A stretch of DNA of 64,000 bases from Clostridia bacterium (GCA_017507855.1 JAFWAE010000026.1:1-64000), one strand, 5' to 3'; shown: positions 34,703-60,868, counted from the first letter of the stretch. The notes: generated by a model not told the origin, from the letters alone. Translations and numbers: made by a program.

Positions 34703-36130
34703 TTATTCAAAATAGGCAGACAGCTCTTCCATGGTGATGCGGGTGACCTCAATACCGGCTTCATAGAAGGAAGAAAAGCTGCTTCCGGGAGTGGCCATGG
34801 TGTTGATGAAGGCAGACAGCGTGCCGGCATAAAGGCCGTTGTTGGGCACACCCAGCATCGTAGTCAGGTGATGAAAGCGTAGCTGGGAGGAAAGCATCTT
34901 AAAGTTTTCAAAGGATTCCTCGTCGCGCAGCAGATTCATTTCATAATCTTCCCAGAAAATGGGCATCAGTTCTTCGTGGCCACGCTTGCCAAGGGTTTGC
35001 AGAAAGGCACCGGCCATTTCCTTGTTTGCGTGGATGGGGACGTACAGGGTAAATACATTGTGGTCGGCGTAGGAGTAGTATTCAGTCTGGTTTTCGTCGG
35101 CCTTGGACATGGGGATGAGGCCGAAGTCGCTGCTCATATCGGGCCAGTACCATTTGGTAGCCATAGCGGAATGGGCGCAGAAAAGGAATTTGTCGCTGGC
35201 AAAGCCGGATTGCACCGTCCAGATCCAATCCTCGCCGCCGCTGTAATTGTAGCGGTAGCCGCCGTCGCGCAGTATGGCGGTCAGTTTGTCGATCAAAGCT
35301 ACGTTATCGGCATCGTTCACGGAAATGCGCACGCTGCCATCCTCTTGGTTTTCAAAGAAGGAGCCTCCGGCGGCTACGAAAAAGCCTTGGTCAATGGTGC
35401 CGTCGGGGCCGCAGAAGCCGTACGTGTCTTCCATGGTCCATACGTTGTCGCCGTTGTCACGGGTGGCGGCCTTGATGCATTTTTCAAACTCCGCCAAGGT
35501 CCATTTGCCGTCCTTGACCAATTGATACAGATCCGGCAGACCCAGGTCCTCGGCCATGTTTTTGTTAAAGAATAGATAATAGGCGGCCTCCACAGCCGGG
35601 TAAATGTCACCGGCAACGCCATAGGTCTTGCCGTTCAAGGTGGTCACTTCCATGGCGCCGTCAAGCCACCATTCAGCCGTCAGATCCACGTAAGGCAGAT
35701 CGCTGACGGGGGTCAGCAGGTTTGCCATCCAAAAATCGCCCATGGTCCACACGTAATCGTGTACTGCGTCGGCATATTTCTCGCCGCTCATCAGCACGGG
35801 CTGGGCCTGGGAGAATACGTCGGTGCTTACGGGAAAGGTGGAAATGTGAACGTCCAGTTCAGCCTCAATGTCAGCCAGGATGTTGTATAGCTTGACCAGC
35901 GTATTGGAACCTTCCAGGCTGGCTGCGGTAAACCAACCGGCCACGTCACCCAGCAGCAGATCGGCGCCGCCGAAAGTAGGCAGCGTGACCTCGGGGGCGG
36001 TGGTAGCCGGAACGGTAGCGGGCGCGGTGGTGGCGGGGGTGGTGTTAGGTGCGGTGGCGGGAGCGGAGTTACAGCCAACCGTTGCCAACAACATGACCAG
36101 TGCGAATAAGACGGATACGATGCGTTTCAT
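34703..36130 (-). CDS. Solute-binding lipoprotein 1 (family 1, sugar ABC type)
   Basis: A 475-residue extracytoplasmic binding protein. A signal peptide with lipobox (LLATVGC, Cys about residue 20) is followed by a linker rich in Ala, Pro and Thr to about residue 48. The mature part has features of oligosaccharide-binding proteins: LNGKTYGVAGDIYPA, YYLFFNKNMAEDLGLP, GKWTLAEFEKCIKAATRD. The start is the ATG after AAGGAGAG; the longer reading has no RBS. It is about 70 percent alike (by eye) to the adjacent SBP 2, with which it forms a tandem pair. No permease or ATPase gene is nearby. Confidence 0.9.
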   Translation of the reverse strand: MKRIVSVLFALVMLLATVGCNSAPATAPNTTPATTAPATVPATTAPEVTLPTFGGADLLLGDVAGWFTAASLEGSNTLVKLYNILADIEAELDVHISTFPVSTDVFSQAQPVLMSGEKYADAVHDYVWTMGDFWMANLLTPVSDLPYVDLTAEWWLDGAMEVTTLNGKTYGVAGDIYPAVEAAYYLFFNKNMAEDLGLPDLYQLVKDGKWTLAEFEKCIKAATRDNGDNVWTMEDTYGFCGPDGTIDQGFFVAAGGSFFENQEDGSVRISVNDADNVALIDKLTAILRDGGYRYNYSGGEDWIWTVQSGFASDKFLFCAHSAMATKWYWPDMSSDFGLIPMSKADENQTEYYSYADHNVFTLYVPIHANKEMAGAFLQTLGKRGHEELMPIFWEDYEMNLLRDEESFENFKMLSSQLRFHHLTTMLGVPNNGLYAGTLSAFINTMATPGSSFSSFYEAGIEVTRITMEELSAYFE

Positions 36131-36246
36131 GGGGGAATCTCTCCTTTGTTTGGAATTTGAGCCCTCTTCATTTTCAAGCATATCACATGTTTGGAAATTT
36201 GCATAGAAGCCGAAGCGGAACAGACTAAATTTTACCAAAGCAAAGC

Positions 36247-36284
36247 TAAAAAAGACAAACGCCCGCGCGAAGCGAGCGTTTGTC
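36247..36284 (-). terminator. Terminator between the tandem SBP genes
   Basis: On the minus strand GACAAACGCTCGC pairs with GCGGGCGTTTGTC around a short loop, followed by six T. It should stop most transcripts of SBP 2 before SBP 1. Confidence 0.85.
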
Positions 36285-36310
36285 CGAAAATAGGGAGAGT
36301 ATGAAAAAAA

Positions 36311-37738
36311 TTAGTTGGAGTAACCTAAAACTTCTTCCATGGTGATGCGGGTGGTTTCAATACCGGCCTCGTAGTTTGCGGCGAAGCTGGAACCGGCAGT
36401 ACCCATCGTACCGGTAAAGGCAATCAGCGTACCGGAGTACAGACCGCCCTTGGCCACGCCCAGCATGCTGGTAACCTGGTGGAAGCGGACCTGAGTGGAG
36501 AGCATCTGGAAGTTTTCAAAGGATTCCGTATCACGCAGATAGGTCATTTCGTAGTCTTCCCAGAAAACGGGAGCCAATTCTTCACGGGAGTGCACGGCCA
36601 AAGACTGCATGAAGGCACCGGCCATTTCTTTGTTGGCATTGATGGGCACGTACAGCATCAATGCATTATGGTCTGCATAGGTGTAATATTCGGTTTGATC
36701 CTCATTGGCCTTGGGCATGGGGATGAGGCCGAAATCGCTGGTCATTTCTTGCCAGTACCATTTCACACCCAGAGCGGGGTAAGCGGCAAACAGGAAGTTA
36801 CCGCTGGGGAAGCCGGATTGAATGCCCCAGCCCCAGTCACCGCCGCTGGAGTAGTCGTAGCGATAACCGCCGTCACGCAGCAGGGTGACCAAGCGATCGA
36901 TCAACGCCAAATTGTCGGCATCGCCCACGGAGATGCGGTTCTTACCGTTTTCGTCGATCTCAAAGAAGGTACCGCCGGCGGCTACAAAGAAGCCTTGCTC
37001 AATAGTGCCGTCGGGGCCGCAGAAGCCGTACGTATCTTCCATATTCCAGACGTTATCACCGTTGTCCTTAGTGGCGGCCTTCAGGCATTTTTCAAACTCG
37101 TCCAAGGTCCACTTGCCATCCTTGACCAGCTGATGCAGGTCCGGCAGGCCCAGGTCTTCGGCCATGTTTTTGTTATAGAACAGGTAGTAAGCACCTTCGA
37201 TGGCAGGATAAAATTCGCCCATCAGACCGTAGGTTTTGCCGTTCAGGGTGGTTACTTCCTTGGCACCGTCCAACCAGTAGTCATCTTCCAAATTGATGTA
37301 AGGAATATCGTTCATGGGGATGAGCAGGTCTGCCACCCAGAAATCACCCATGGTCCACACATAGTCATGGATCACGTCGGCAAAGGGATCGCCGGACATC
37401 AGCACAGGCTGAGCATTAGAGTATACGTCGGTAGCTACGGGGAAGGTTTGGATGTCAATGTCCAGCTCCTCGGAAATGGCGGCCATTACATTATAAACGG
37501 CGGCCAAGGTGTTGGAGCCTTCCAAGGTAGCACCGGTAAACCAGCTGGCTGCATCGGCCAGCATGAGGGTTTCGCCGCCGAAGGTGGGCAGCTTCACTTC
37601 AGCGGGCTTGGTGGTAGCGGGCGTGGTGGCAGGCGTAGTGGCGGGAGTAGTGGCGGGAGTAGTGGCAGGCTTGTCTCCGCAAGCGGCCATACCGACCAGC
37701 ATCAAGATCGCCAACACACAGGCTAAGATGCGTTTCAT
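36311..37738 (-). CDS. Solute-binding lipoprotein 2 (family 1, sugar ABC type)
   Basis: A 475-residue paralogue of SBP 1. The lipobox Met-Ala-Ala-Cys ends at residue 20 and is followed by five exact Pro-Ala-Thr-Thr repeats (residues 24-43), then the mature domain with LNGKTYGLMGEFYPAIE, YYLFYNKNMAEDLGLP and GKWTLDEFEKCLKAATKD. Asp/Trp-rich segments (YVWTMGDFWVAD) suggest a sugar ligand. It has a perfect promoter and its own terminator, so it is probably the more strongly expressed copy. Confidence 0.9.
   Translation of the reverse strand: MKRILACVLAILMLVGMAACGDKPATTPATTPATTPATTPATTKPAEVKLPTFGGETLMLADAASWFTGATLEGSNTLAAVYNVMAAISEELDIDIQTFPVATDVYSNAQPVLMSGDPFADVIHDYVWTMGDFWVADLLIPMNDIPYINLEDDYWLDGAKEVTTLNGKTYGLMGEFYPAIEGAYYLFYNKNMAEDLGLPDLHQLVKDGKWTLDEFEKCLKAATKDNGDNVWNMEDTYGFCGPDGTIEQGFFVAAGGTFFEIDENGKNRISVGDADNLALIDRLVTLLRDGGYRYDYSSGGDWGWGIQSGFPSGNFLFAAYPALGVKWYWQEMTSDFGLIPMPKANEDQTEYYTYADHNALMLYVPINANKEMAGAFMQSLAVHSREELAPVFWEDYEMTYLRDTESFENFQMLSTQVRFHQVTSMLGVAKGGLYSGTLIAFTGTMGTAGSSFAANYEAGIETTRITMEEVLGYSN
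37610..37669 (-). repeat. 12-bp in-frame tandem repeat coding (PATT)5
   Basis: Five copies of a 12-base unit encode Pro-Ala-Thr-Thr in the linker of SBP 2. The units are nearly identical in DNA, so copy number could change by slippage and alter linker length without breaking the frame. Confidence 0.8.
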
Positions 37739-47218: not shown

Positions 47219-47293
47219 GGGAGCAGAGTAAAAGGCAGACGACGGGCGGATGCGCGCGGCTCTGCATCAAGCAAAATGGCAAGGAGAGAGTGT

Positions 47294-48841
47294 ATGAAAA
47301 CGAAACGCACAAAAGGCCTGCTTGCGGTGGCGCTGGGAAGCGCGTTGATTTTTCTGGGGCTTTTAAGCGGATGTACGGCCTCGGCGCAAAGGCATGCAGA
47401 GGTGCTGGGAGCCCCGGCCCCCTGCGGGCAGGACGATACGGCGGCTCTGCAGCAAGCTTTGGATCGGGTCAGTAACGGAGGCGTACTTGTGCTTGGCGCG
47501 GGCGAATACCACGTGGACGGTGCACTGTGTGTGCCCGAAAAGGCGACCCTTCGTGCCGTGCAAGGCGCTTTGCTTTGCGTAGGAAAGGAAGGCAGTTTGA
47601 CTGTCAATGGTCGGGTGCAGGCCGGGATCTACCCCATTTTTGCCGTGGAAGGGCAACTGCAGGGAAGCTCTCCTTCCACCGCATATCCCCAATGGTTCGG
47701 TGCAAAAGGGGATGGAACGACGGACGATTCCCGCGCCTTGGAGCAGGCGGTTCGCTGCTTTGCCACCGTCAAGCTGCCCGAAACCGGTGACGGCGGCTAC
47801 GTGCTGGGCGACGTGCGCCTGGAAAAGGCGGTAACGGTGGAAGGGGTCGGCAACTCCCGTATTACCGTTTTGCCCGCCAAGGGCTGTGAGGCCGTGTTTT
47901 GCGTGGCGGGAAGCGGGATCAGCGTGAAAAATTTTGTTATAAACGGAGCCTCCATGAAAAAGGACTCTACCGCGTTTCTCATGGATTCTCAGCGTGGAGA
48001 TATGAGCGATATCAGCATAGAGAACATTCACGCTACGGCTTTATGGGGCTTTTTGAAGGACAATGGCGGAGAGCATAGTGTTACCCGCTTTGACTGCCAT
48101 AGTATTCAGACCACCGACTATCGCGGAGGTCAGTTTTATATGACCCGCTTCACGGAAGGTATCACTATGAGCGAAATTGTGGTCAGCGCTTTTGCCAATG
48201 TGTACTTTCCGGGTATCTGGGTTGAAAATGCCAACGGATGGAATCTGCAAGATATGGACGTGGCCGGAGGTCGTTTGAGCGGAGAGGGCGGTCACGGCAT
48301 GGTGTTCGTCAACAGCAAAAATGTGGTGCTTGAGCGAGCGATGATGGAATTCATCAGCGGAAAGGGTTTGTGGCTGAAGAACTGCAGCGGATTTTCTGTG
48401 GGAAGCTGGGTTAGTAGTCCCTATCAGCAGGAAGCAATCCTATTGGAGCAGGTTACTGACAGCCGTTTTGATCTTCTCAACATAGTGGGAGAATACGAGC
48501 TCAATCCTATAGAAGGAGCGACGGCCGATTGCCTTGTTCTGCGGGATTGCAGTAACTGTGAATTTGTCAATGTTAATATCAACCGTTGCTATTTTCAATC
48601 CTTGGTTCTGGAAAATTGCACCGATATGCGATTTAAAACCTTGCTCATTGAAAACAATTTTGGCAACGGAATCCTGGAAAAGGGCACCAGCGACCGCAAT
48701 ATTTTCGAGGGCGTGACGATTTCCAACATCGAAAGCGATGCAGAGGTGGTGCTTGTGGGAGAAAACAGCGAGATCCGAGGCCTTAGCACCGATGAGCTTG
48801 GTTTCTGCCAACGCTATACGAAACAGGGGGCAGAACAATGA
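47294..48841 (+). CDS. Pectate-lyase-3-type beta-helix lipoprotein A
   Basis: A 515-residue lipoprotein (lipobox Leu-Ser-Gly-Cys near residue 27). The motif WFGAKGDGTTDDSRALEQA (from about residue 135) is the entry of the pectate_lyase_3/rhamnogalacturonase-like beta-helix family. Before it, GQDDTAALQQALDRVSNGG looks like a worn first copy of the same motif. Much of the rest is parallel beta-helix sequence (ISVKNFVING, SDISIENIHAT, CEFVNVNINRCYF). It may cut or bind pectin-like glycans; catalytic residues cannot be named by eye. Its stop overlaps the next gene by 4 bases (ATGA). RBS AAGGAGAG. Confidence 0.8.
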   Translation: MKTKRTKGLLAVALGSALIFLGLLSGCTASAQRHAEVLGAPAPCGQDDTAALQQALDRVSNGGVLVLGAGEYHVDGALCVPEKATLRAVQGALLCVGKEGSLTVNGRVQAGIYPIFAVEGQLQGSSPSTAYPQWFGAKGDGTTDDSRALEQAVRCFATVKLPETGDGGYVLGDVRLEKAVTVEGVGNSRITVLPAKGCEAVFCVAGSGISVKNFVINGASMKKDSTAFLMDSQRGDMSDISIENIHATALWGFLKDNGGEHSVTRFDCHSIQTTDYRGGQFYMTRFTEGITMSEIVVSAFANVYFPGIWVENANGWNLQDMDVAGGRLSGEGGHGMVFVNSKNVVLERAMMEFISGKGLWLKNCSGFSVGSWVSSPYQQEAILLEQVTDSRFDLLNIVGEYELNPIEGATADCLVLRDCSNCEFVNVNINRCYFQSLVLENCTDMRFKTLLIENNFGNGILEKGTSDRNIFEGVTISNIESDAEVVLVGENSEIRGLSTDELGFCQRYTKQGAEQ

Positions 48842-50394
48842 AAAGTATCCTTAGCATTTTACTGGCCTTATGCTTTTTGACGGCCGCCGCAGGATGCATG
48901 AAAACTCCCGTGGAGACGCATCCATCTACGGAGGAGAGCGTCTTCGAAGAGGTTAGCATTCCCTTTTCCCTTTTGGCGCAGACCCTGGTAGATCCCCGTG
49001 ATTTCGGGGCCAAGGGGGATGGCGTAACGGACGATAGCCAGGCTATTACTCAGGCGGTAAAGGCTGCCCAAGAGGCCGGGTGCGGATTGGCTCTTTTTGC
49101 GGGTGAATACCGCCTGGAGAAAAATGTGCAGATCCCCCGTGAGATCAGCGTGATGTTTGAGCAGGGTGCTGTGCTTGCTCCCGTAGCAGAAAGTCGATTG
49201 CAGTTTGACGGAGGCATTGAGGCGGGCGATTGGCAGATCTTCGGCGGAGAGGGCACTTTGACCGGCGATCCCTTGGCCGAAATGGGCAACCCCTTGTGGT
49301 TTGGCGCCAAAGGCGACGGAGTTACAGATGATTCCAAGGCTATTTCTCAAGCCTTGAACATGTTCAGAGAAGTGCGACTGCCTGTAACCGAAAAGGGGTA
49401 TGCGGTGACATCGGTATCTTTGACCAGACAGTGCCGCTTTGGTGGACGGGGAGGAAAAGTAGTTTTGGTTGCCACGGAAACTGCTCAAGATGTGCTGACC
49501 ATTTCCTCTTCCTGTGTGATGGTGGATAATTTGTCCTTCGTTATGACACAGGCGCCCGAAGCCACCTGTATCTATCTGGACGATTCCCGTGCGGGATTTG
49601 ACCGTATGGATATTGACGGGATCGATACGCTGGATGCATTTTGTGTGGTACGGGATGCCAAGCACGCTAAAAATATGATATGCACAGCCCATTTTAATAA
49701 TTTTACCTGCATGGATAACCGCGGTACATCCTTTGATTTGACGGATGCATGGGGATTTGTGTTTGCGAAGGATATTCTCATTGACAATTCCGCATCCAAG
49801 ACAAAGCATGGAGCAAACGGCTTTACCGCCATTAAGGTGACGGACAATGCGGGAATTATCATGAACAACATTACCGTGCTGGGAGATCCTTCTTCAAATG
49901 CGCGTTCCCACGGGGTAGAGATCAACAATTCCATGGCAGTATGGATCGAAGGGTTGAAGGTTCATAACGTGGGTGGATGTGGCTTGAAAAATAACGGTGT
50001 TTTTTCTTACGGATATTTGAAAAATCACAAATACGTTGGTTGCGGCGGTATAGCGGTTAGCATCGCCAATTCCTGGTATCTGCAATTTTCCGGCATTGAG
50101 CTGGACGGCCTAAAGGCGGACGGAACTCATTCCGACAAAGCGGGTATGCAAATGAGCTCGCCCTTGATGCCCATGCTGTATGGCATTTCGGCAAAGAATT
50201 TTGATACCGTACCCCTTTCTCTGCGCACGGTGAACGCGGGGGTCGTTTCCTGTGTTTGGGCCGAAGGCTGTTCCAAAAACACCTTGACCCTGGTAGCTCC
50301 CACTTGTACGGCAGTTTGCACGGTTGCGGGAGGGGCAGAGATCAGCGGAAACAGCCGGGGAAGCGGAGTGGTTGGACATGAGCAGTCAACATGA
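48838..50394 (+). CDS. Pectate-lyase-3-type beta-helix lipoprotein B
   Basis: A 518-residue lipoprotein (lipobox Ala-Ala-Ala-Gly-Cys, Cys about residue 20). It carries two good copies of the family motif: DFGAKGDGVTDDSQAITQA near residue 57 and WFGAKGDGVTDDSKAISQA near residue 157, the second at the entry to the beta-helix. Paralogue of the previous gene, with which it is translationally coupled. Function is probably in pectin or other uronic-acid glycan use, or in surface binding; substrate unknown. Confidence 0.82.
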   Translation: MKSILSILLALCFLTAAAGCMKTPVETHPSTEESVFEEVSIPFSLLAQTLVDPRDFGAKGDGVTDDSQAITQAVKAAQEAGCGLALFAGEYRLEKNVQIPREISVMFEQGAVLAPVAESRLQFDGGIEAGDWQIFGGEGTLTGDPLAEMGNPLWFGAKGDGVTDDSKAISQALNMFREVRLPVTEKGYAVTSVSLTRQCRFGGRGGKVVLVATETAQDVLTISSSCVMVDNLSFVMTQAPEATCIYLDDSRAGFDRMDIDGIDTLDAFCVVRDAKHAKNMICTAHFNNFTCMDNRGTSFDLTDAWGFVFAKDILIDNSASKTKHGANGFTAIKVTDNAGIIMNNITVLGDPSSNARSHGVEINNSMAVWIEGLKVHNVGGCGLKNNGVFSYGYLKNHKYVGCGGIAVSIANSWYLQFSGIELDGLKADGTHSDKAGMQMSSPLMPMLYGISAKNFDTVPLSLRTVNAGVVSCVWAEGCSKNTLTLVAPTCTAVCTVAGGAEISGNSRGSGVVGHEQST

Positions 50395-51265
50395 CCGTGA
50401 TCCGTACATGTCCATCATTCAACAGGTACGGGAATATATTTGTTCCAATTTGCATGAGCCGTTGAGCGTGGATGCTTTGGCCGATAATGTTTATTATTCC
50501 TCCCGCCATCTCAACCGCATTTTTGAGCTGTATATGGGCACGACCTTAAAATCCTACTGTCATTGGGTGCGCCTGTCCCATGCCGTGTACGAGCTTCGTT
50601 TGACGCAAAAGACCGTCAAAGAGATCGCCTGCTCTCACGGATATTCCTGCGAGCGTAGCTTTTCCCGGGCGTTCAAGGAGGTTTTTTCCTGCACGCCCAG
50701 CCAATACCGCCGGGGAACGGCGGAGCTTGGTTGTTCCCAGCGAATGCCCCTGGCAGACATGGTCAGCAACGTATCCGTGGGAAAACGGTGCGAGGCGGGG
50801 AAATTGCTGCCCAAGGAGCTTTGGCTGTACCCTCAGCCCGGATATGCGTTTTTTTGCCAAAGCCCACAGGTACGGGTGCAGGTGGGCGAGGAGGGAAGCT
50901 TCGTTTTGGACTATGCTCCCAACACGGAGGGCCCCGTAAACGTGGCCTTTCGGCTGACCCGTTCCCAATTGCAAAGCACACCGTGGTTGGGATTGCGCTT
51001 GGATCCTTCGGCCACGGTGGTGTCGGTCTTTGCCTACGCTTGCTATCAAACGGCAAAGCCCATGCTGTATTATATCCTTCCCCCCACCGCCTTGTCCGGG
51101 CGTGGGGAGATAGAGCTGCATTGCCGGCTGGAACAGTTCTTTTCCAACCATTGGGAAAAGGTAAGGGAGGAGATTATTGTGGGTGTAAATATTTTTCCCT
51201 CTCCTCAAAATCCCGATCCGTTAACGGTACGACGCCTTTGGCTTTTTCAGGAAGAATCGATTTGA
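50378..51265 (+). CDS. AraC-family regulator, HTH first, with C-terminal beta-rich domain
   Basis: A 295-residue protein with the AraC two-HTH domain at the N terminus (about residues 10-110: PLSVDALADNVYYSSRHLNR, then TVKEIACSHGYSCERSFSRAF and FSCTPSQYRRG). Most AraC proteins have this domain at the C terminus. The remaining about 175 residues (from ADMVSNVSVGKR) are strand-rich with aromatic residues (WLYPQPGYAFFC, FVLDYAPNTEGPVNVAF) and may bind a ligand; I do not recognise the fold. The start overlaps the end of lipoprotein B by 17 bases, so it is made with that operon. Probably an operon-specific regulator. Confidence 0.82.
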   Translation: MSSQHDRDPYMSIIQQVREYICSNLHEPLSVDALADNVYYSSRHLNRIFELYMGTTLKSYCHWVRLSHAVYELRLTQKTVKEIACSHGYSCERSFSRAFKEVFSCTPSQYRRGTAELGCSQRMPLADMVSNVSVGKRCEAGKLLPKELWLYPQPGYAFFCQSPQVRVQVGEEGSFVLDYAPNTEGPVNVAFRLTRSQLQSTPWLGLRLDPSATVVSVFAYACYQTAKPMLYYILPPTALSGRGEIELHCRLEQFFSNHWEKVREEIIVGVNIFPSPQNPDPLTVRRLWLFQEESI

Positions 51266-51316: not shown

Positions 51317-52777
51317 ATGAAGAAAAGCACTATCCTTGCCTTCTTGCTGGCTCTTGCAACGATTTTGGGAGCTTGCGGAGGCCCCGTAGCAACCACACCT
51401 GCAACCGTTCCGGGAACCGCGCCTGCCACATCTCCCGCCACTGCTGACACCGGCAGATACGAGGGGCTTGGCAAGCAAGATTTTGACGGTCGCGAATTTA
51501 TCATTGCCGGTGCCAATGAGGCTTGCTTCCAATATGCGGAAAACGGCTCCGTGATCCAGCAGGCTTATTACGAGGCCTACATGAACGTGGAAGAAGAACT
51601 CAACTGTGTGATCACCATTGCCACCGACGCCGGCGACATTTATCAGGCCGCCCAGCCCTCGCTGATGGCCGGTGATTACTATGCAGACGTTTTTGCTCCC
51701 GCCTTTTTCTGGTCCGGCTATTTTATCGAGAACAGCTATGCCGAAGATCTAAACCAGTTTGTACAGTTGCAGTTGGATCAACCTTGGTGGGAGGACGCTG
51801 CCACGGAAATGTCTACCTTTAACGGGAAGACCTACGCTATTAAGGGAGCTTTGAATCCCTCTATTGACCGTCATTGGGTAGTGTTTTTCAACAAGGCCAT
51901 GATCGAAAACCTTGGCTTAACCAGTCCCTACGAGCACGTGCGCAACAACACCTGGACCTGGGACACCTTTGAGACCTATATGCGCAAGGCCACCTTTGAC
52001 GTGGATGGGGACAACTACATGAGCGCCGACGACAGCTACGGCTGGGGCGGCCCCTTTTCGGATTCGGCCTTTGTGATGTGGATGAGCGCGGGCCAGCCCG
52101 TATTTGAAGTGGCCGAGGACGGCACCTCTGCCCGTTTGGCAATGGGCGATGCCAAAAGCGGCGATATTGCCCGCCGCATTCGTTCTATGATGTTCGATTC
52201 CGGCTACGTGTACGACCTGAAGGACGGAGAAAGCTGGGTCGTATCCTTCGAGGAGCAGTTCCCCAACGACCGCTGCCTGTTCACTTTTGAACATTTGGAA
52301 TACGCCAATTACACCTACTGGGTGGAAATGACTTCCGATTTCGGCATCGTGCCCGTGCCCAAATACGATGCAAACCAGGAAAAATACAGCACGTATCTGG
52401 ATCACTATCCCAGCGTTTTGCTGATTCCCCGCGGCCTGGAAAATCCCGAAGATTCTGCTGTCTTGCTGGAAGCTTTGGCGCAGGAATGCTACCGGACCAC
52501 GTATCCCAACATTGTGGACAACTATAAGGACAACCTGTTCCGCGACGAAGAATCCGCAGAAATGCTGGATCTGATCCTGGACGATACGGGCCGCTATTTT
52601 GAGCTGAGCACCCTGTTCGGATGGTCCTCCGGCGGTGTGTACGGGGCCGGCGTAGTGTTGCTGGCCAACGTGTGTATCTTTAACGGCGCAGACTTTTCTG
52701 CCGAATACGAGCAGAACGCGGAAGCGACTCAGCTGGCGGCAGATGAACTGTTGGCCAAGCTGAATAATTTGAGCTGA
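51317..52777 (+). CDS. Solute-binding lipoprotein 3 (family 1, sugar ABC type)
   Basis: A 486-residue lipoprotein: lipobox ending Leu-Gly-Ala-Cys (about residue 20), a linker rich in Ala/Thr/Pro, then the binding domain (DFDGREFIIAGANEA, STFNGKTYAIKGALNPS, HWVVFFNKAMIENLGL, WTWDTFETYMRKATFDVDGD). It is related in layout to SBP 1 and 2 but more distant. It is the last gene of the pectate-lyase-type operon and probably binds the oligosaccharide they release. No permease or ATPase follows. RBS GGAAAGGAAAG. Confidence 0.88.
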   Translation: MKKSTILAFLLALATILGACGGPVATTPATVPGTAPATSPATADTGRYEGLGKQDFDGREFIIAGANEACFQYAENGSVIQQAYYEAYMNVEEELNCVITIATDAGDIYQAAQPSLMAGDYYADVFAPAFFWSGYFIENSYAEDLNQFVQLQLDQPWWEDAATEMSTFNGKTYAIKGALNPSIDRHWVVFFNKAMIENLGLTSPYEHVRNNTWTWDTFETYMRKATFDVDGDNYMSADDSYGWGGPFSDSAFVMWMSAGQPVFEVAEDGTSARLAMGDAKSGDIARRIRSMMFDSGYVYDLKDGESWVVSFEEQFPNDRCLFTFEHLEYANYTYWVEMTSDFGIVPVPKYDANQEKYSTYLDHYPSVLLIPRGLENPEDSAVLLEALAQECYRTTYPNIVDNYKDNLFRDEESAEMLDLILDDTGRYFELSTLFGWSSGGVYGAGVVLLANVCIFNGADFSAEYEQNAEATQLAADELLAKLNNLS

Positions 52778-53258: not shown

Positions 53259-54140
53259 TTACGGGGAGACCAGCAAACGCCCCAATTCGGAATCGGCGTT
53301 TAAGATCACGGTCTTTTCCGTGCCGGTCAGGGAGGCCTTCAGCGCATCCAGGGCCATGATGAATTCGTAGAAATCCTGCTGGTCCTCCGTGGCGTAGGCT
53401 TCCGCCAGCATTTGCATGTAGGCGCTTTCACCCTCGGCCTCCAGCTTGGCGGCTTGGGCTTGGGCGTTGGAGATGAGGATGTTGACCTGCTTATCTACCT
53501 CGTTGCGCAGAATGGAGGCTTCCTTGTTGCCGTCGGCGGTGTATTTTTCCGCGATCTGGTTACGGTCGGAGATCATGCGGTTGTATACGGCCTGCTCGTT
53601 ATCGGCGGGCAGATCCAGGCGCTTGACCTTTACGTCCAACACGTCGATGCCGTAGGTCTTGGCCAAAGCGGATACTTCGGTGGTGATGCTGGCGTAAATG
53701 TCGTTGCGCTCGGAAGCATCGTCCTGGTTGATGATGTCGTTTTGCTCCAGCGTGCCCATCAGATTTTTCAGGGCCGTATAGGTCAGCGCATCCAGGCGGT
53801 TTTCCGCTTCGTTCAGGCTGCCCAGGGTCTGGTAGAACACCTGCGGATCTCGGATCTGCCAGATCAGATAGCTGTCCACGGTCATGTTCTTTTTGTCGGC
53901 TGTGAGCACTTCACTCTCGGGAATGTCGTAAAGCAGAGTGGTGCGGGGGAAGGTCATGACGCTGTCCACAAAGGGAAGCTTGAAATGCAGGCCGGGCTGG
54001 TCCTGCACCGATTCGATCTTGGAAAAGCGGAGCACGGCGGCGTATTCATTTTCGGCCACGGTATAGAAGCAGCCGCTGAGGATGATCACGGCGGCCAGGG
54101 CCACTACGCCGATGATGATCCAGGTCAGATTCTTTTTCAC
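53259..54140 (-). CDS. hflC: SPFH-domain membrane protein HflC
   Basis: A 293-residue protein with one N-terminal TM helix (about 5-25) and a prohibitin/SPFH domain (YTVAENEYAAVLRFSKIES, PGLHFKLPFVDSVMTFPRTT), then a helical region (YGIDVLDVKVKRLDLPADNE, AQAQAAKLEAEGESAYMQ). HflC and HflK together form a ring that controls FtsH protease and membrane microdomains. It follows hflK by 2 bases. Confidence 0.93.
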   Translation of the reverse strand: MKKNLTWIIIGVVALAAVIILSGCFYTVAENEYAAVLRFSKIESVQDQPGLHFKLPFVDSVMTFPRTTLLYDIPESEVLTADKKNMTVDSYLIWQIRDPQVFYQTLGSLNEAENRLDALTYTALKNLMGTLEQNDIINQDDASERNDIYASITTEVSALAKTYGIDVLDVKVKRLDLPADNEQAVYNRMISDRNQIAEKYTADGNKEASILRNEVDKQVNILISNAQAQAAKLEAEGESAYMQMLAEAYATEDQQDFYEFIMALDALKASLTGTEKTVILNADSELGRLLVSP

Positions 54141-54142
54141 GG

Positions 54143-55126
54143 TTATTGACCCTCCTTCTGTGCGGAAAAGCTTTCCAGGGGCAGCAGTTTGCTGACCCCG
54201 TTTTCCGTGGTGTCGATATACAGCTTTACGTTGGGCAGCACCGCCGTCATGGCCTCGTAGTACATCCGCGTGCGGGTCATGCCGGGATTGCGGGCGTATT
54301 GCTCGTACATGGCGGTGAACAGGGCCACCTGGCGGGTCGCTTCGTTGATGCGGTTCTGCTTCAGGTATTCGGCGTTTTGGATCAGCTTATCCGCCTCGGC
54401 CTGGGCACGGGGAAGCTGGGCGTTTTGATAGGCTTTGGCTTCGTTGATGGCGGTCTCGGCGTATTGCTTGGCCGTTTCTACGGCTTTAAACGCCTCGATG
54501 ACGCTTTCCGTGGGGGGCTCACTGTCCTGGATCTTCACGTCCGTCAGCATCAGGCCGATATCGTAATCGGTCAGCACCTCGGCCACAAGCTCCTTGACTT
54601 TTTGTTGGATCTCGGCCTTGCCGTCGGTCAGCACGCTGTCTACCGTGCTGGAGCCCACTACGTTGCGGATCTGGCTTTGCACCAGATTTTTAAAGATCAG
54701 CTCCGGCTGGCGGGAGGCGTACAGGTATTTCACGGGGTCAGATACCTTGTATTCAATAAAGAAATCCACACTGACGATATTGTAGTCGCCGGTGATCATT
54801 TTGCTTTCCTTTTCCACCACGGAATAGGAGGAGCCGTCTGCGGAGTCGGTGCGGTAGCCCAGCTCAATCTTTTGGTATACGTTGACGTCCACCTTTTGCA
54901 CCTGTTGGATGCCGAAGGGGAGCTTAAAATGCATGCCTGCACCGGCAGTCCCCGTGACCTTGCCGAAGGTGGTGATCACAGCTTGTTGCTTTTCGTTGAC
55001 CGTGTACCAGCAGGTGCTTGCCAGGATCACGGCCAACAGGATCACGGCCGTGGCCAGCACGATCTTTTTGATCTTGTCGGCATTCGGGTCGATGCGGATG
55101 GGACGGGAATGTGGGTTAAAACCCAT
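54143..55126 (-). CDS. hflK: SPFH-domain membrane protein HflK
   Basis: A 327-residue partner of HflC. Short cytosolic N terminus, one TM helix (about 25-45), SPFH domain (WYTVNEKQQAVITTFGKVTG, GMHFKLPFGIQQVQKVDVNV), then coiled-coil-prone region (ETAINEAKAYQNAQLPRAQA). The Gly-rich N-terminal extension of E. coli HflK is absent, as in other Firmicutes. First gene of the hflK-hflC pair. No ftsH is adjacent. Confidence 0.93.
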   Translation of the reverse strand: MGFNPHSRPIRIDPNADKIKKIVLATAVILLAVILASTCWYTVNEKQQAVITTFGKVTGTAGAGMHFKLPFGIQQVQKVDVNVYQKIELGYRTDSADGSSYSVVEKESKMITGDYNIVSVDFFIEYKVSDPVKYLYASRQPELIFKNLVQSQIRNVVGSSTVDSVLTDGKAEIQQKVKELVAEVLTDYDIGLMLTDVKIQDSEPPTESVIEAFKAVETAKQYAETAINEAKAYQNAQLPRAQAEADKLIQNAEYLKQNRINEATRQVALFTAMYEQYARNPGMTRTRMYYEAMTAVLPNVKLYIDTTENGVSKLLPLESFSAQKEGQ

Positions 55127-55154: not shown

Positions 55155-55448
55155 TTATGCCAGGCGTACGTCCACGGCCACGCTGGCCAGGCGCACGCGA
55201 TGCATGTAGGGTTTTACGGTGCCTGCGTGATAGGGGTCCTGCTGGTAGGCCTCCAAAGCGGCCTCATCCTCCAACAGCACCTCCAAGATCACGTCGTAGG
55301 AGCGTTCGGAATGCAAAAAGTCAATTCCTACGGAAAGGCCGCGCAGCTGGGGGACCTTTCCTTCCATGGAAAGAAGCATGTTTTTGGCTTCCTCGCAGGC
55401 GGCGGGGCTGTTGTCCCGCAGTTTAAAACAGACGATGTGCTTGATCAT
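55155..55448 (-). CDS. Dabb-family (stress-responsive A/B barrel) protein
   Basis: A 97-residue dimeric alpha/beta-barrel protein. Typical pieces: MIKHIVCFKLRD at the N terminus, VGIDFLHSERSYDVILEV, and LEAYQQDPYHAGTVKPYMH near the end. The biochemical role is unknown in most members. Its start overlaps the deacetylase stop by 4 bases. Confidence 0.88.
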   Translation of the reverse strand: MIKHIVCFKLRDNSPAACEEAKNMLLSMEGKVPQLRGLSVGIDFLHSERSYDVILEVLLEDEAALEAYQQDPYHAGTVKPYMHRVRLASVAVDVRLA

Positions 55449-56239
55449 GAAAGAGCCTCCTCAAGATAATGAATAAAACGGGATTGAGACGTGCCCGGAA
55501 ACACGATAAAACGGCCGATCTGCATGGGATCTCCCTGAAGGGAGGCGTACCCCTGCTTGGTGGTAAAGGCTGCACGTACGCCGTGTTGCGGCAACACGGT
55601 AAGGGTGTTTTCATTGAAAGCGCCGTAGGGATAGGCGTATAGGGTGTTGGCGGTACAAAAGGCCAAATTGGCTTGGGTGTCTTCAGCCAGCGAGACAGCC
55701 GTTTGGGAAAGCATCAAGGGTTGGCCGTCGGCATCCGTGGCATGCAGGGCGTAGGAATGGCTGTGGAACTCAAATACGTCCGTGTAGTCGCGCATGCTTT
55801 CGGGATCCATCATCTGCAGCTCGTCCCCATCCCAGGGGGCGGGCTGTTGCGCCAGTAAGGTCCCGCTGACGAAAATGACGGCGGTGTAGCCGTATTGGCG
55901 CAGCACCGGGGCGGCGTAGCGAAGGTTGCTGGCGTAGCCGTCATCAAAGGTGATGAGCACACTTTTTTTGGGCAGAGCCTTTCCCTCATACAAAAAATCG
56001 ATCAGTTCTCGGGAGGAAACAGTCTGCCATCCGTTGTCGTGCAGCCATTTCATTTGCCATTCGAATTCGTCGGTGGAGATCACGGAACCGTTTTCCCGAT
56101 ACAGCCTGTTTTCCTCTTCTGTCAGCAGGTGATGGTACAGTAAAACGGGCACCTTTTGTTGAAGAGAAGGAGGTTGATCAACACAACCTGCTCCCAAACA
56201 AAGAAGTGCGGTAAGAACCAAAGCCAAAGCGGTTTTCAA
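55445..56239 (-). CDS. Polysaccharide deacetylase lipoprotein
   Basis: A 264-residue lipoprotein (lipobox Leu-Gly-Ala-Gly-Cys) with the NodB/CE4 fold: the catalytic Asp and metal Asp in TFDDGY, the metal His pair in FHSHSY, and AYPYGAFNENT. The CE4 family removes N- or O-acetyl groups from peptidoglycan or plant polysaccharides; the group with YHHL near the N terminus is usually linked to wall or biofilm glycans. Next to the TIM-barrel-like lipoproteins it may deacetylate the same glycan. Confidence 0.9.
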   Translation of the reverse strand: MKTALALVLTALLCLGAGCVDQPPSLQQKVPVLLYHHLLTEEENRLYRENGSVISTDEFEWQMKWLHDNGWQTVSSRELIDFLYEGKALPKKSVLITFDDGYASNLRYAAPVLRQYGYTAVIFVSGTLLAQQPAPWDGDELQMMDPESMRDYTDVFEFHSHSYALHATDADGQPLMLSQTAVSLAEDTQANLAFCTANTLYAYPYGAFNENTLTVLPQHGVRAAFTTKQGYASLQGDPMQIGRFIVFPGTSQSRFIHYLEEALS

Positions 56240-56276: not shown

Positions 56277-58181
56277 TCAGTCAGCCACGATCTCCAAATT
56301 GTCCAAGAACAGTTCGGCGCCGTCTTCGCCGAAGAGTACGATCCTCCAAGCGCCCACCTGACTCCAATCCGTGATGGGGGAGATATAGTCGATGCCTTCG
56401 TCAAAGGATACGGCTAATTCATTCCAACCCTCCTGTAAGCCTCCGGGAAAGTCTGCCATCCACGAATGAGAGACGGCCATCACGTCTAAGCTATCGGCAA
56501 ACATAATGTAGCCGGCGCGGTCGGAGGCGGCGGAAGAATATACCTGCAAACGAATGGTGGCACCGGACTCCTTAGCGGCCTTCAGATCCAGCTTTTTGCC
56601 GTTTTCATAGCCGGCGTAGGCAATGGCGTATTGGCCCTGCACCTGCAGATAGCCGGACTTGCCCTCCTTGGCGTAGGAGGAGTCGGCGGAGGTGCCGGCC
56701 TCGCCGTTATCAAAGCCCGTAATGCGCATCAGGACGTTCTCAGGCAGGGTTACAGGTTGGGGTTGGGAGGTTTGGGGCCCCTTGGGAAGCATCATTTCGA
56801 TACGTTGGCGGACCTTGCTCATAAAGGCGCGGGGGGATTCAGGCAGGTCATAGACGAGCTCCTTGGTGGTGCGCACCGTCAGCGTTTCGAAGGCGGCCAT
56901 GGCTTCCTTAGCGTCCTTCAGCGTAGTCTCAAACAGGGGCAGGCGCTCCTGTTCGGGGAGCTTTTGATGCCAGTTGGCGTCGTTTTCCAGGAATTTGAAG
57001 ATCTCCGTCAGCTTGTCCACTCCGTCCTCGGTGACCAGGTACGAGGCGTATTCCCGCAGCACGGCCTCGGGAGTGAGGGTGGCGTCGTGAGCAAAGCGGG
57101 CAAAGGCGTACAGGTTGATGGCGTTGTTGAGGGTGGAGTTACCGGCAATGACGCCCGTCATTTCGATGGCGCGCATGGCATCGATGTATTTTTTGATATA
57201 GCGGGTGTTGAAATTGGGAAGCTCCGTGCGAGAAGAGCCGGCGGAGTCGCCGTCGTCCAGCTCATCCAGCAGGAAGTGGCTGAAGCCCCAAATACGGGAG
57301 GCGCCGTTCTGCTTGGCCAAGGCCACATCCTGGGCGTTGGGGAAGTAGGATTCGGGCTTTTTCCCTGTTTCGTAGTACAGGCGCAGGGCCAGGGCGCGGT
57401 AATAGTCGTGGCCGGGGATCTCGATGCCGATCTCGGGACCGATGAAATCTTTCATGGCCAGCATCTGGCGGCCCAAGGTGCCCTCGGAGATCCAAAAGTT
57501 CACGCTGAAGGGGTTTGCAACCTTTTGAACGTATTGCGAAACGGCCCAGATATTGGCGTTGAATTTCGCGTTGGGGGCGTGTTTTTTCACCAGATCGTAC
57601 ACATCCAGCACCATATCTGTGTAATATTCCAGGCCGCCCTGAGTAGGCAGGCCACTTACTCCGCCGGGGTCGCCGGCAAAAAGGGAGAAGCCGTCGGCCA
57701 TATTCCAGACCTCCAGATTTTCCTCGATAAAAGTCAAGCGTTGGGCCATTTTTTCCGTATTGGCGGGATTGAACACGGTGCCCGAACCGTTGGAGGTATA
57801 GTCGGAGGGGCCCATGTGCTGTTCCAGGTTGGTCAAAAAGATGACGTATACTTTCAAGCCGTGAAGCTGGGCCATCTCGATCTCCTTTTTCATTTCCTGG
57901 CGGTAATTGTCCAGGGGAGCGCCGGGCTTGAAGAACCAGCCGATATCCAGCAGCTCAATGGTGTCAATGCCGCTGGCCTTCCAGAATTTGATCTGGGAAG
58001 GGGTAATATTCCGATAAGCGTAATAGCCCACTGTGTCAAAGCCGTCGCCGGAGGTGGCGGGAACCGTCGCGGGGGTCGTGGCAGGTTCGGTAGCGGGGGT
58101 CGTGGTGGCGGGCTCTACACAAGAGGCGAAGCTGATGAGCAGAGCGCAGGCTGCAAGCAGGGCGATCAGTTTGCTTTTCAT
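56277..58181 (-). CDS. TIM-barrel-like lipoprotein with C-terminal CBM-like domain
   Basis: A 634-residue lipoprotein (signal peptide, lipobox Ser-Phe-Ala-Ser-Cys, Ala/Thr/Pro linker to about residue 45). The main domain (about 48-470) begins DTVGYYAYRNITPSQIKFWK and has features of sugar-cutting barrels: IDTIELLDIGWFF, LKVYVIFLTNLEQH, ADGFSLFAGDPGG, FNANIWAVSQYVQ, GPEIGIEIPGHDYYRALALR. Acidic residues in the last piece and in FLLDELDDGDSAG may be catalytic. The C-terminal about 160 residues (from ITGFDNGEAG) are strand-rich and resemble a carbohydrate-binding jelly roll. I do not recognise the family. Tandem paralogue of the next gene upstream. Confidence 0.75.
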   Translation of the reverse strand: MKSKLIALLAACALLISFASCVEPATTTPATEPATTPATVPATSGDGFDTVGYYAYRNITPSQIKFWKASGIDTIELLDIGWFFKPGAPLDNYRQEMKKEIEMAQLHGLKVYVIFLTNLEQHMGPSDYTSNGSGTVFNPANTEKMAQRLTFIEENLEVWNMADGFSLFAGDPGGVSGLPTQGGLEYYTDMVLDVYDLVKKHAPNAKFNANIWAVSQYVQKVANPFSVNFWISEGTLGRQMLAMKDFIGPEIGIEIPGHDYYRALALRLYYETGKKPESYFPNAQDVALAKQNGASRIWGFSHFLLDELDDGDSAGSSRTELPNFNTRYIKKYIDAMRAIEMTGVIAGNSTLNNAINLYAFARFAHDATLTPEAVLREYASYLVTEDGVDKLTEIFKFLENDANWHQKLPEQERLPLFETTLKDAKEAMAAFETLTVRTTKELVYDLPESPRAFMSKVRQRIEMMLPKGPQTSQPQPVTLPENVLMRITGFDNGEAGTSADSSYAKEGKSGYLQVQGQYAIAYAGYENGKKLDLKAAKESGATIRLQVYSSAASDRAGYIMFADSLDVMAVSHSWMADFPGGLQEGWNELAVSFDEGIDYISPITDWSQVGAWRIVLFGEDGAELFLDNLEIVAD

Positions 58182-58215
58182 AGGGGGAAAACACTCCTTT
58201 TTCAGACAGATTTGC

Positions 58216-59574
58216 TCATTTGAGCATCATTTCAATGCGTTGGCGGACCTTGGTCATAAAGGCGCGGGGGGATTCGGGCAGATCGTAGATCAGCTCCTTG
58301 GTGGTGCGCACCGTCAGGCTGTCGAAGGCATCCAAGGCGGCTTGGGCATCCTTCAGGGAGGTTTCAAACAGGGGGATGCGCTCCTCCTCGGGGAGCTTTT
58401 GATGCCAGTTGGCGTCGTTTTCCAAGAATTTGAAGATCTCCGTCAGCTTGTCCACCCCGTCCTCCGTGACCAAATAGGAGGCGTATTCTCGCAGGACGTC
58501 CTCGGGGGAGAGGGTAGCATCGTGGGCAAAGCGGGCAAAGGCATACAGGTTGACGGCGTTGTTGGTTGTGGAGTTCCCGGCGATCGCTCCTGTCATTTCG
58601 ATGGAGCGCATCGTATCGATATATTTTTTGATATAGCGGGTGTTGAAATTGGGAAGCTCCGTGCGGGAGGAGCCGGCGGAGTCGCCGTCATCCAGCTCAT
58701 CCAGCAGAAAATGGCTGAATGCCCAAACGCGGGTAGTTCCGTTTTGTTTGGCCAACGCCACGTCCTGAGCGTTGGGGAAGTAGGATTCGGGCTTTTTCCC
58801 CGTTTTATAATACAGGCGCAGGGCCAGGGCACGGTAATAGTCGTGGCCGGGGATCTCGATGCCGATCTCGGGGCCGATGAAGTTTTCCATAGCCAAGATC
58901 TGGCGGCCCAGCGTGCCTTCGGAAAGCCAGAAATTGACGTTAAAAGGGTCGGCCGTCTTTTGAATAAATTGGGAAACGGCCCAGATGTTGGCGTTGAATT
59001 CGGCTTGGGGAGCGTGTTTTTTTACCATGGCGTGGACCTTGAGCACCATGTCGGTGTAATAGTCCAAAGAGCCTTGGTTGCGCAGGCCGCCCACACCGCC
59101 GGGGTCACCGGCAAAAAGGGAGAAGCCGTCGGCATGGCTCCAGGCCTGCAAATTGGCTTCGATATGACCCAAACGCTCAGCCATTTTGGCCTCGTCGGCG
59201 GGATCGAACACGGTGCCGGAGCCGTTGGAGGTGATATCCTCGGGGCCCATGTGCTGTTCCAGGTTGGTCAAAAAGATGACGTACACCTTAATGCCGTAGC
59301 CCTTGGCCAGGGAGATTTGCTGGCGCATACGTTCGCGGTAATTGTCCAGAGGAGCTCCGGGCTTGAAATACCAGCCGATATCCAGCAGCTCGATGGTGTC
59401 GATGCCGCTGGCACGCCAGAATTTCAGAGATCTGTGGTCGATGTTTTGAAACGCATAGTAACCCACAGTGTCAAAGGTGTGGGTGGGCTTGGCGGGCTTT
59501 TTTTCACAGGAGGTCAGGGCGGGCGTGATGACAGAGGCCAACGCCAAGGCTAAGGCCAGATGGCTGAGTTTCAT
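58216..59574 (-). CDS. TIM-barrel-like lipoprotein, short paralogue
   Basis: A 452-residue lipoprotein (lipobox Ala-Leu-Thr-Ser-Cys), highly alike to the first 470 residues of the next gene, but without the Ala/Thr/Pro linker and without the C-terminal domain; it ends at QRIEMML-K. Shared blocks include IDTIELLDIGW, FGPEIGIEIPGH-type GPEIGIEIPGHDYYRALALR, and SSRTELPNFNTRYIKKYID. The ATG at 59574 follows a GGAGAT RBS; the longer reading has none. First gene of the pair, with a strong promoter. The difference suggests one anchored or bound form and one form targeted to a glycan. Confidence 0.75.
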   Translation of the reverse strand: MKLSHLALALALASVITPALTSCEKKPAKPTHTFDTVGYYAFQNIDHRSLKFWRASGIDTIELLDIGWYFKPGAPLDNYRERMRQQISLAKGYGIKVYVIFLTNLEQHMGPEDITSNGSGTVFDPADEAKMAERLGHIEANLQAWSHADGFSLFAGDPGGVGGLRNQGSLDYYTDMVLKVHAMVKKHAPQAEFNANIWAVSQFIQKTADPFNVNFWLSEGTLGRQILAMENFIGPEIGIEIPGHDYYRALALRLYYKTGKKPESYFPNAQDVALAKQNGTTRVWAFSHFLLDELDDGDSAGSSRTELPNFNTRYIKKYIDTMRSIEMTGAIAGNSTTNNAVNLYAFARFAHDATLSPEDVLREYASYLVTEDGVDKLTEIFKFLENDANWHQKLPEEERIPLFETSLKDAQAALDAFDSLTVRTTKELIYDLPESPRAFMTKVRQRIEMMLK

Positions 59575-59833: not shown

Positions 59834-60868
59834 ATGCATCGGCGCATGTACGGATACGGCGGGGATATGGAAAAGGCAATTCCTCTTTTTCGAGGCGGTC
59901 GTATTGAGGCCGTTACTGCCCCCTATGACCCCCTGGCCGCACGCATAGCAACGGAAAACGGCATGGCATTTTATGCCTGTACCGCGGCTATGGAAGGAAA
60001 CGGACCGAAGGACTGTTGCATCGACGCATGGGGAGCTGCCGTGGATTCGCCCTGCCCCAACGCGCCGGGGTTGCTTGCCAAAAACGTGCAGCGCATCGTT
60101 TCCTTGGCCACTGCGGATCACGTAAAGGGTGTAACGCTGGATTATTGCCGATACCCGTCCCCCGCTGCCGCTTCCGCCTGTGCGGGGATGACGGTGTGCT
60201 TTTGCTCGGCCTGCTGTGCCAAAATGGAGCAGGAGGGGATGGATGTGGAGGCCATGCGGCGAGCTGTGGGCAAATGGCCTGCCTGGGAAGAGACGGATCT
60301 GCCCTTGTTGCGCCGCTTTCTCAGATTTCGTGCCAAAAGCGTGACGGCGTACGTGAAAGCGCTGTACGACGGGGTGAAGGCTGCAGACCGGGAGAAGGAA
60401 TTGGGAGCCTATGTATTTGCCCCAAGCTTGGCGCCGTTGGTGGGACAGAGCTACGCGTCGTTGGCTGGATGTACGGATTTTTTGTCACCCATGCTGTACC
60501 GCTATTACCGCCATCCCGTGGGGATCGCCTGCTTGGATCACGAGTTGGGGGCTCTGCAAAAAATGAGGGAGGAGCTGACGGAGCTTCAGCAAAGTAAGGC
60601 AGCACGCACGCTTTGCGCCCTGACGGGGATCGACGGGATCCCTTCGGAGAAGGAATTGAAAGAAAAGGGCCTGCCCATGAAGATGCTGTGGAAAGAGTTG
60701 ATGGAGGCTCGCCGCCAAACGGAGGGGCGGGTGCTTATCCCGATTATTCTGCTGGAGGATCCTCGTTTTTTGGAGGTTTCCGACGCGGTGCGCATTTTTG
60801 ATACGGACGGGGTGGATTTCTTCCTGTTTGCCCGAGAATATTTTGAAAAGCTGGACGTGTTTCAGTAA
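59834..60868 (+). CDS. Glycosidase-like protein with Cys-rich motif
   Basis: A 344-residue cytoplasmic protein (no signal). Barrel-like strands: VKGVTLDYCRYPSP (like the L-D-Y-x-R-Y-P strand of hypothetical glycosyl-hydrolase-like families), then TVCFCSACCAKM, a Cys-rich motif seen after that strand in such proteins, then LGAYVFAPSLAPLVGQ and TDFLSPMLYRYY, and GRVLIPIILLEDP. It may be a carbohydrate-active enzyme; activity is unknown. I chose the ATG at 59834 for spacing after AAAGGGG; 59828 is an alternative two codons upstream. Divergent from the TIM-barrel-like pair, so may share its control. Confidence 0.6.
   Translation: MHRRMYGYGGDMEKAIPLFRGGRIEAVTAPYDPLAARIATENGMAFYACTAAMEGNGPKDCCIDAWGAAVDSPCPNAPGLLAKNVQRIVSLATADHVKGVTLDYCRYPSPAAASACAGMTVCFCSACCAKMEQEGMDVEAMRRAVGKWPAWEETDLPLLRRFLRFRAKSVTAYVKALYDGVKAADREKELGAYVFAPSLAPLVGQSYASLAGCTDFLSPMLYRYYRHPVGIACLDHELGALQKMREELTELQQSKAARTLCALTGIDGIPSEKELKEKGLPMKMLWKELMEARRQTEGRVLIPIILLEDPRFLEVSDAVRIFDTDGVDFFLFAREYFEKLDVFQ

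Follow-up and report, generated by a model that had tools for sequence, protein, structure and literature searches.

Tandem lipoproteins of a Clostridia bacterium belong to a family of predicted TIM barrels with an invariant Asp-Pro-Gly-Gly motif and a probable role in glycan breakdown

RESULTS

Two adjacent lipoprotein genes share a core

We analyzed a 64,000-nt stretch of DNA from a Clostridia bacterium (GCA_017507855.1 JAFWAE010000026.1:1-64000; hereafter, the window), in which two adjacent genes on the (−) strand, P0002 and P0001, encode similar secreted lipoproteins of a family that probably comprises carbohydrate-active enzymes. The genes and their main features are as follows:

58216..59574, (−) strand: P0002, a 452-amino-acid (aa) lipoprotein with a predicted (beta/alpha)8 barrel and a C-terminal helical domain
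56277..58181, (−) strand: P0001, a 634-aa lipoprotein with the same core as P0002, a PAT-rich N-terminal tether, and a C-terminal beta-sandwich
58053..58112, (−) strand: PAT-rich tether of P0001, between the lipid-anchor Cys and the barrel
56280..56750, (−) strand: carbohydrate-binding module (CBM)-like beta-sandwich domain of P0001 (about residues 478–634), at the C-terminus
59095..59106, (−) strand: P0002 motif D157-P-G-G, where barrel strand 4 has its C-terminal end
57660..57671, (−) strand: D-P-G-G motif of P0001 (D171), the counterpart of the P0002 motif

The two open reading frames share 348 of 446 residues over the core (78%; E = 0). Both have good ribosome-binding sites, with the ATG of P0002 at 59574 preceded by AAAGGAG, and both N-termini, as judged by eye, carry a signal peptide together with a lipobox-like Cys. 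The original prediction of a tandem, strongly similar pair of secreted lipoproteins was therefore sound. Within the shared core, the nonsynonymous divergence (dN) was 0.13 and the synonymous divergence (dS) was 0.69, indicating purifying selection on both genes; since identity is higher in the second half of the core than in the first, the second half appears to be more constrained.

A PAT-rich linker and an added C-terminal CBM-like domain had also been attributed to P0001. The linker is present but runs from the anchor to the barrel rather than lying ahead of the added domain. Its region (58041-58178) is matched by a solute-binding protein (P0005) of the same genome, and because such linkers also occur in the solute-binding lipoproteins of this genome, we regard it as a tether that is not specific to the family. 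The C-terminal domain is real and is common to two relatives elsewhere (~25% identity). Its model, built from a three-sequence alignment, is a beta-sandwich of low confidence (predicted local distance difference test [pLDDT], 67), and its top fold matches are CBM11 and CBM30 (E = 1.5e-3 and 8e-3; template modeling [TM] score, 0.45–0.50). With an identity of 9–12% and a model of this quality, we claim membership in neither family and describe the domain, at low confidence, as CBM-like and resembling CBM11/CBM30.

The core is predicted to be a glycosidase-type barrel

The AlphaFold2 model of the core, built from a 26-row alignment of the family, reached a mean pLDDT of 89.5 and a predicted TM-score (pTM) of 0.88. 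As originally proposed, the predicted fold is a triosephosphate isomerase (TIM) barrel: it is a complete (beta/alpha)8 barrel with eight strands (residues 36–41, 60–64, 96–101, 150–154, 192–196, 237–241, 283–287, and 329–332) and helices between them, followed by a helical domain (residues 337–451). Glycosidases lead its matches in the PDB, where Foldseek placed glycoside hydrolase family 84 (GH84) O-GlcNAcases at the top (E = 2.3e-7), followed by beta-amylases, GH20, and GH5. The query-normalized TM-score did not exceed 0.50 for any solved fold; the modeled core is a barrel of the glycosidase type, and no solved structure is closely related to it.

GH84 (PF07555) resembles the family in having a barrel followed by a helical domain and catalytic acids at the end of strand 4, but its TM-scores to the family model are mostly 0.40–0.47 (maximum, 0.50) at 7–12% identity. 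GH84 enzymes use a neighboring Asp-Asp pair after strand 4 in catalysis, whereas the family has A-G-D-P-G-G at this place, the residue before D157 being Gly or Ala. The Pfam scan at E ≤ 1 gave no PF07555 match for the pair, no GH84 match was found in the window genome, and profile kinship to GH84 was rejected, as the hhalign comparison was at noise level (E = 0.13). The fold matches would suit an amino-sugar glycosidase of the hexosaminidase type, acting on a poly-N-acetylglucosamine-type polymer together with the deacetylase encoded just downstream of P0001, whose best-scoring models, PgaB/IcaB, remain below their cut-offs. We consider this quite improbable, given the missing Asp-Asp pair, the noise-level profile comparison, and the absence of the deacetylase as a recurrent neighbor of other copies.

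A single carboxylate is invariant at the barrel mouth

AGDPGG proved the best-conserved motif of the family, whereas the acidic patch LDELDDGD, which had been thought conserved, varies among the relatives. D157, which follows strand 4, is invariant in all 25 members that have sequence there. The other invariant residues at strand C-terminal ends are N196 and W198 (strand 5) and Y247 (strand 6); W216 is also invariant in the alignment, and H244 (22/25) and R248 (23/25) are nearly so. D157, N196, W198, Y246, Y247, and R248 form a polar and aromatic set at the C-terminal ends of strands 4–6. The remaining carboxylates are conserved only within subfamilies: E219 in 23, E240 in 22, and D245 in 19 of the 25 members (Asn in five). 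Judging by the alignment and the model, D157 is the best candidate for a catalytic carboxylate. Paired carboxylates in a barrel had been suggested as a structural check; the barrel is predicted, and at its mouth only Asp157 is invariant. An enzyme is still compatible with this one invariant carboxylate, whose partner in a classical catalytic pair would be putative.

Family libraries, GH67, and a cousin family

We found nothing above cut-off for P0001 or P0002 in Pfam, NCBIfam, PHROGs, or PADLOC, and nothing significant when PDB sequences were searched with either protein or with the 26-row profile. The initial impression that the pair matches no recognized family therefore holds for these libraries. 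The literature yielded no paper describing a DPGG glycosidase or dealing with RGIG4130 (a metagenome-assembled genome [MAG] carrying relatives; see below), and open-paper full text on new families gave no match. The family is thus undescribed as far as Pfam, NCBIfam, PHROGs, PADLOC, and the PDB reach, CAZy lying outside the comparison.

The only signal from a curated family was Pfam GH67C (E = 0.018 and 0.0097; 15.1–15.9 bits against a cut-off of 27). No GH67 Pfam model matched above cut-off, and there was no GH67M match for the pair; GH67C was the sole match in the Pfam-A scan at E ≤ 1, which gave nothing for GH115, a profile that was not compared directly. GH67 alpha-glucuronidase chains were among the sub-threshold PDB profile matches (E = 0.45). 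By hhalign, the E value against GH67 was 8.8e-5 in the tool; in a rerun restricted to the core it was 1e-3, while control profiles (GH84, UxaC, UxuA, and solute-binding proteins) gave 0.011–0.13 and a reversed profile ≥0.07. The similarity is confined to a motif after the barrel:

58480..58551, (−) strand: post-barrel motif of P0002, residues 342–365 (NLYAFARFAHDATLSPEDVLREYA), with weak local likeness to the GH67 C-terminal region
57045..57116, (−) strand: post-barrel motif of P0001, residues 356–379, the counterpart of the P0002 motif

The family shares with GH67 (PF07477/PF07488) this motif, N-x-Y-x-F-x-R ... P-E ... E-(Y/W), as well as the succession of barrel and helical domain, but it has no N-terminal alpha/beta domain, and the GH67 catalytic motifs K-A-D-S-E and Q-I-(T/A)-Q-E-Y-T-G are absent from its alignment. 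GH67 and GH115 themselves share a barrel-plus-helical-bundle architecture with unlike active sites (PMC3879575), and the GH67 signal may hint at distant kinship with enzymes of this build. A narrower form of the enzyme reading would accordingly make the family uronic acid-specific glycosidases, i.e., a minimal relative of the GH67/GH115 alpha-glucuronidases (barrel and helical bundle) that takes uronic acid off xylan- or pectin-type glycans. The GH67 matches above, the GH67/GH115 precedent, and the UxuA-like genes in the clusters of both Bacteroidota that carry the family, one of which also has a GntP permease, speak for it. We nevertheless regard it as unlikely, as the alignment does not reach the catalytic residues of GH67, and the 50 best fold matches include no GH67 structure. 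In addition, UxaC is missing from the window genome (86% complete) and UxuA is matched weakly at best, so that a classical uronate pathway in this genome was rejected.

A remote relative is a cousin family found in Bacteroidota clusters that also hold the family:

L051:12100-15266, L063:5777-7339, and L024:3136-4653: cousin family (MYIHQHWSYNHPYAARTWT ... DSDPGGYP)

These cousins have no match in Pfam, NCBIfam, or the PDB. Compared with the family by hhalign (probability, 97%; E = 2.4e-10), they align over strands 1–5, including ADG...DPGG, so that the barrel part with its D-P-G-G motif is homologous; one 942-aa protein is a cousin domain fused to a family domain. They differ in their length of about 500 aa, in reading D-S-D-P-G-G, and in having been seen here only in Bacteroidota.

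Ten copies in one genome and few relatives elsewhere

The window genome (1.55 Mb) holds ten family members at seven places. When 84,980 species genomes were scanned for a pattern, with limited reach, relatives appeared in five others: three gut or rumen Clostridia MAGs, namely, RGIG4130 (roe deer colon), RGIG8085 (buffalo rumen), and RGIG6098 (sheep omasum), and two Bacteroidota, Parapedobacter defluvii and Sphingobacteriales bacterium 50-39. Whole-genome searches added further copies, mostly in RGIG6098. No member was found in 58 other relatives, in drawn samples of 390 genomes of the host class and 397 of the host phylum, in 300 genomes from the family of P. defluvii, or in 392 genomes belonging to the RGIG6098 order (these draws overlap in part), and viral contigs, phages, and plasmids yielded no relative.

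In the tree, copies C48 and C42c of the window genome each branch with RGIG6098, and C11/C50 branch with RGIG4130. Because copies pair with those of other MAGs, the subfamilies either predate these lineages or were exchanged among them. A recent lineage-specific expansion of all ten copies was rejected for the same reason; only the window pair with C50, and the C34/C42 duplicates, look recent. Copies without a signal peptide stand beside anchored ones at C34 (C34b) and C42 (C42b) and in RGIG8085 (its second copy).

Relatives lie in glycan-utilization neighborhoods

A solute-binding protein is encoded directly beside the family (<300 bp) at C50, C34, and C42 of the window genome. Adjacency at three of seven places arose by random placement in 0 of 20,000 trials, a crude test framed after seeing the data. 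The same arrangement occurs in RGIG8085, and RGIG4130 has such a gene nearby. Close to the C50 copy are GH2 and GH3 genes and an esterase; the related RGIG4130 copy has GH2, a BD-FAE esterase, and a beta-helix gene close by. In RGIG6098, the order is ATP-binding cassette (ABC) permeases, LacI, the family, and a ~990-aa GH5-like gene, the permeases and LacI being named from sequence (LacI through homology to a Pfam-confirmed RGIG4130 gene).

One Parapedobacter cluster reads SusC, SusD, family, SGNH esterase, RHGA-like, and FAH, and a second reads MlrC, lactonase, family, major facilitator superfamily (MFS) transporter, two cousins, UxuA-like, and GH5-like gene; SusC/SusD, the MFS gene, and the SGNH esterase were named by sequence features rather than by family search. 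A family protein of Parapedobacter is encoded at L022:5878-7257, and the SusC/SusD cluster of P. defluvii, which belongs to a cultivable genus, spans about 512–562 kb of its contig 1. The cluster ingredients recur in Sphingobacteriales 50-39, where the family is joined in one protein with a GDSL (SGNH) esterase that Pfam confirmed. These neighborhoods bear out the idea of a glycan-degrading gene set. Two gene types that are unusual in polysaccharide loci, MlrC-like (M81) and glutamate-1-semialdehyde-aminomutase-like aminotransferase genes, were also observed in the Bacteroidota clusters.

L050:6598-9546, L051:16275-19265, and L063:7389-10376: ~990-aa GH5-like protein, beside the family in Clostridia and Bacteroidota
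L051:6905-8404, L064:13311-14807, L063:10395-11699, and L065:1307-2614: MlrC-like/aminotransferase-like genes, both Bacteroidota

The GH5-like gene is next to a family copy in one Clostridia MAG and is part of the clusters of both Bacteroidota. Across the phyla, its products share 26% identity (E = 6e-71) with an invariant N-E and E-E-F-G, a pattern typical of retaining clan-A enzymes. The protein probably belongs to this clan, as supported by a PF00150 match at 2.4e-7; otherwise Pfam sees it weakly or not at all.

Other genes in the window

55445..56239, (−) strand: lipoprotein with a NodB-type polysaccharide deacetylase domain and motifs TFDDGY and HSHSY, separated from P0001 by 37 bp on its downstream side
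59834..60868, (+) strand: divergent gene with sub-threshold similarity to DUF4015 (putative glycosyl hydrolase; E = 0.16)
47276..50394, (+) strand: two adjacent beta-helix lipoproteins with a rhamnogalacturonase/epimerase-like domain
50324..51265, (+) strand: AraC-family regulator
51317..52777, (+) strand: extracellular solute-binding lipoprotein (SBP_bac_1), of the type that also adjoins other family copies

The polysaccharide deacetylase noted earlier beside the pair was verified by Pfam (E = 3.6e-15) and is probably co-transcribed with P0001; as a partner of the whole family it was rejected, since it does not recur. The divergent gene is likewise present, but the glycosidase likeness ascribed to it is weak. 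It probably encodes another barrel hydrolase-like protein, and kinship with the pair was rejected in the absence of profile similarity to P0001 or P0002; its product contains a Cys-rich stretch, CFCSACC. Elsewhere in the window, a further pair of solute-binding lipoproteins of the type listed above lies in tandem (34703-37738; ~16 in the genome), and an HflC/HflK-like pair of prohibitin-type membrane proteins, recognized by eye (53259-55126), immediately follows the deacetylase and a small 97-aa gene on their downstream side.

DISCUSSION

We propose that the members of the family are carbohydrate-active enzymes with a TIM barrel, lipid-anchored on the outside of the cell and in all likelihood glycoside hydrolases, that act on a decorated glycan, and assign this reading a probability of roughly 0.68. 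The glycosidase-like character originally suggested is thus mostly right in kind, although the acidic patch is not what is conserved and the divergent gene resembles glycosidases weakly. Several observations weigh against it: there is no second invariant carboxylate, Glu219, Glu240, and Asp245 each being replaced in some subfamilies; no sequence-level tie connects the family with any characterized enzyme; TM-scores of ≤0.50 to solved glycosidases support a TIM barrel of glycosidase type only; gene neighborhoods vary from copy to copy; and the window deacetylase is not recurrent beside other members.

In a different interpretation, the proteins are non-catalytic surface glycan-binding lipoproteins, i.e., degenerate barrels that feed fragments to an ABC or SusC/SusD importer. 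The lone invariant carboxylate at the barrel mouth, the lipid anchor and adjoining solute-binding proteins, and the beta-sandwich domain in three members are all consistent with binding, which would also explain the many paralogues. Signal-less copies beside anchored ones, however, fit enzymes working inside and outside the cell rather than surface binders, the conserved set occupies the C-terminal ends of strands 4–6, where barrel enzymes keep their active sites, and in one protein the family domain is joined to an SGNH esterase. We therefore think that a purely binding role is rather unlikely.

If the family members are glycoside hydrolases, they would act together with sugar ABC importers in Clostridia or SusC/SusD importers in Bacteroidota. 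The glycan would be bound at the barrel mouth, with Asp157 as the putative proton donor, and the reaction may be completed by a subfamily-specific group (Glu219, or else Glu240 or Asp245 of strand 6) or by substrate assistance. The beta-sandwich domain of P0001 may help to hold the polymer, and products of adjacent esterase or deacetylase genes could remove decorations. The anchored and signal-less neighbors at C34, C42, and in one relative suggest cutting outside, import, and trimming inside. The substrate is probably a plant or microbial sugar polymer; the esterase and beta-helix neighbors hint at decorated plant glycans, and the UxuA-like and GntP genes of the Bacteroidota possibly point to uronates, to which we do not commit because UxaC was not found in the window genome.

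Tentatively, and at somewhat less than even odds, the family and its cousins might represent a new glycoside hydrolase group, "DPGG," in which one catalytic Asp alone is invariant. In Clostridia as in Bacteroidota, the group would be kept with the likewise undescribed GH5-like partner of ~990 aa as a route for a glycan not yet known to be degraded. The kind of enzyme is itself already known; of note are the ten paralogues in one genome, the cousins, and a partner shared by two phyla, and two or three families without a current Pfam or NCBIfam name would gain an annotation. The tie to the GH5-like partner across phyla, together with SusC/SusD, points to one glycan. The nearest family relatives of this small-genome host are gut and rumen MAGs, and since at least ten copies, anchored and signal-less, are kept in so small a genome, their substrate is probably important to the living of the host.

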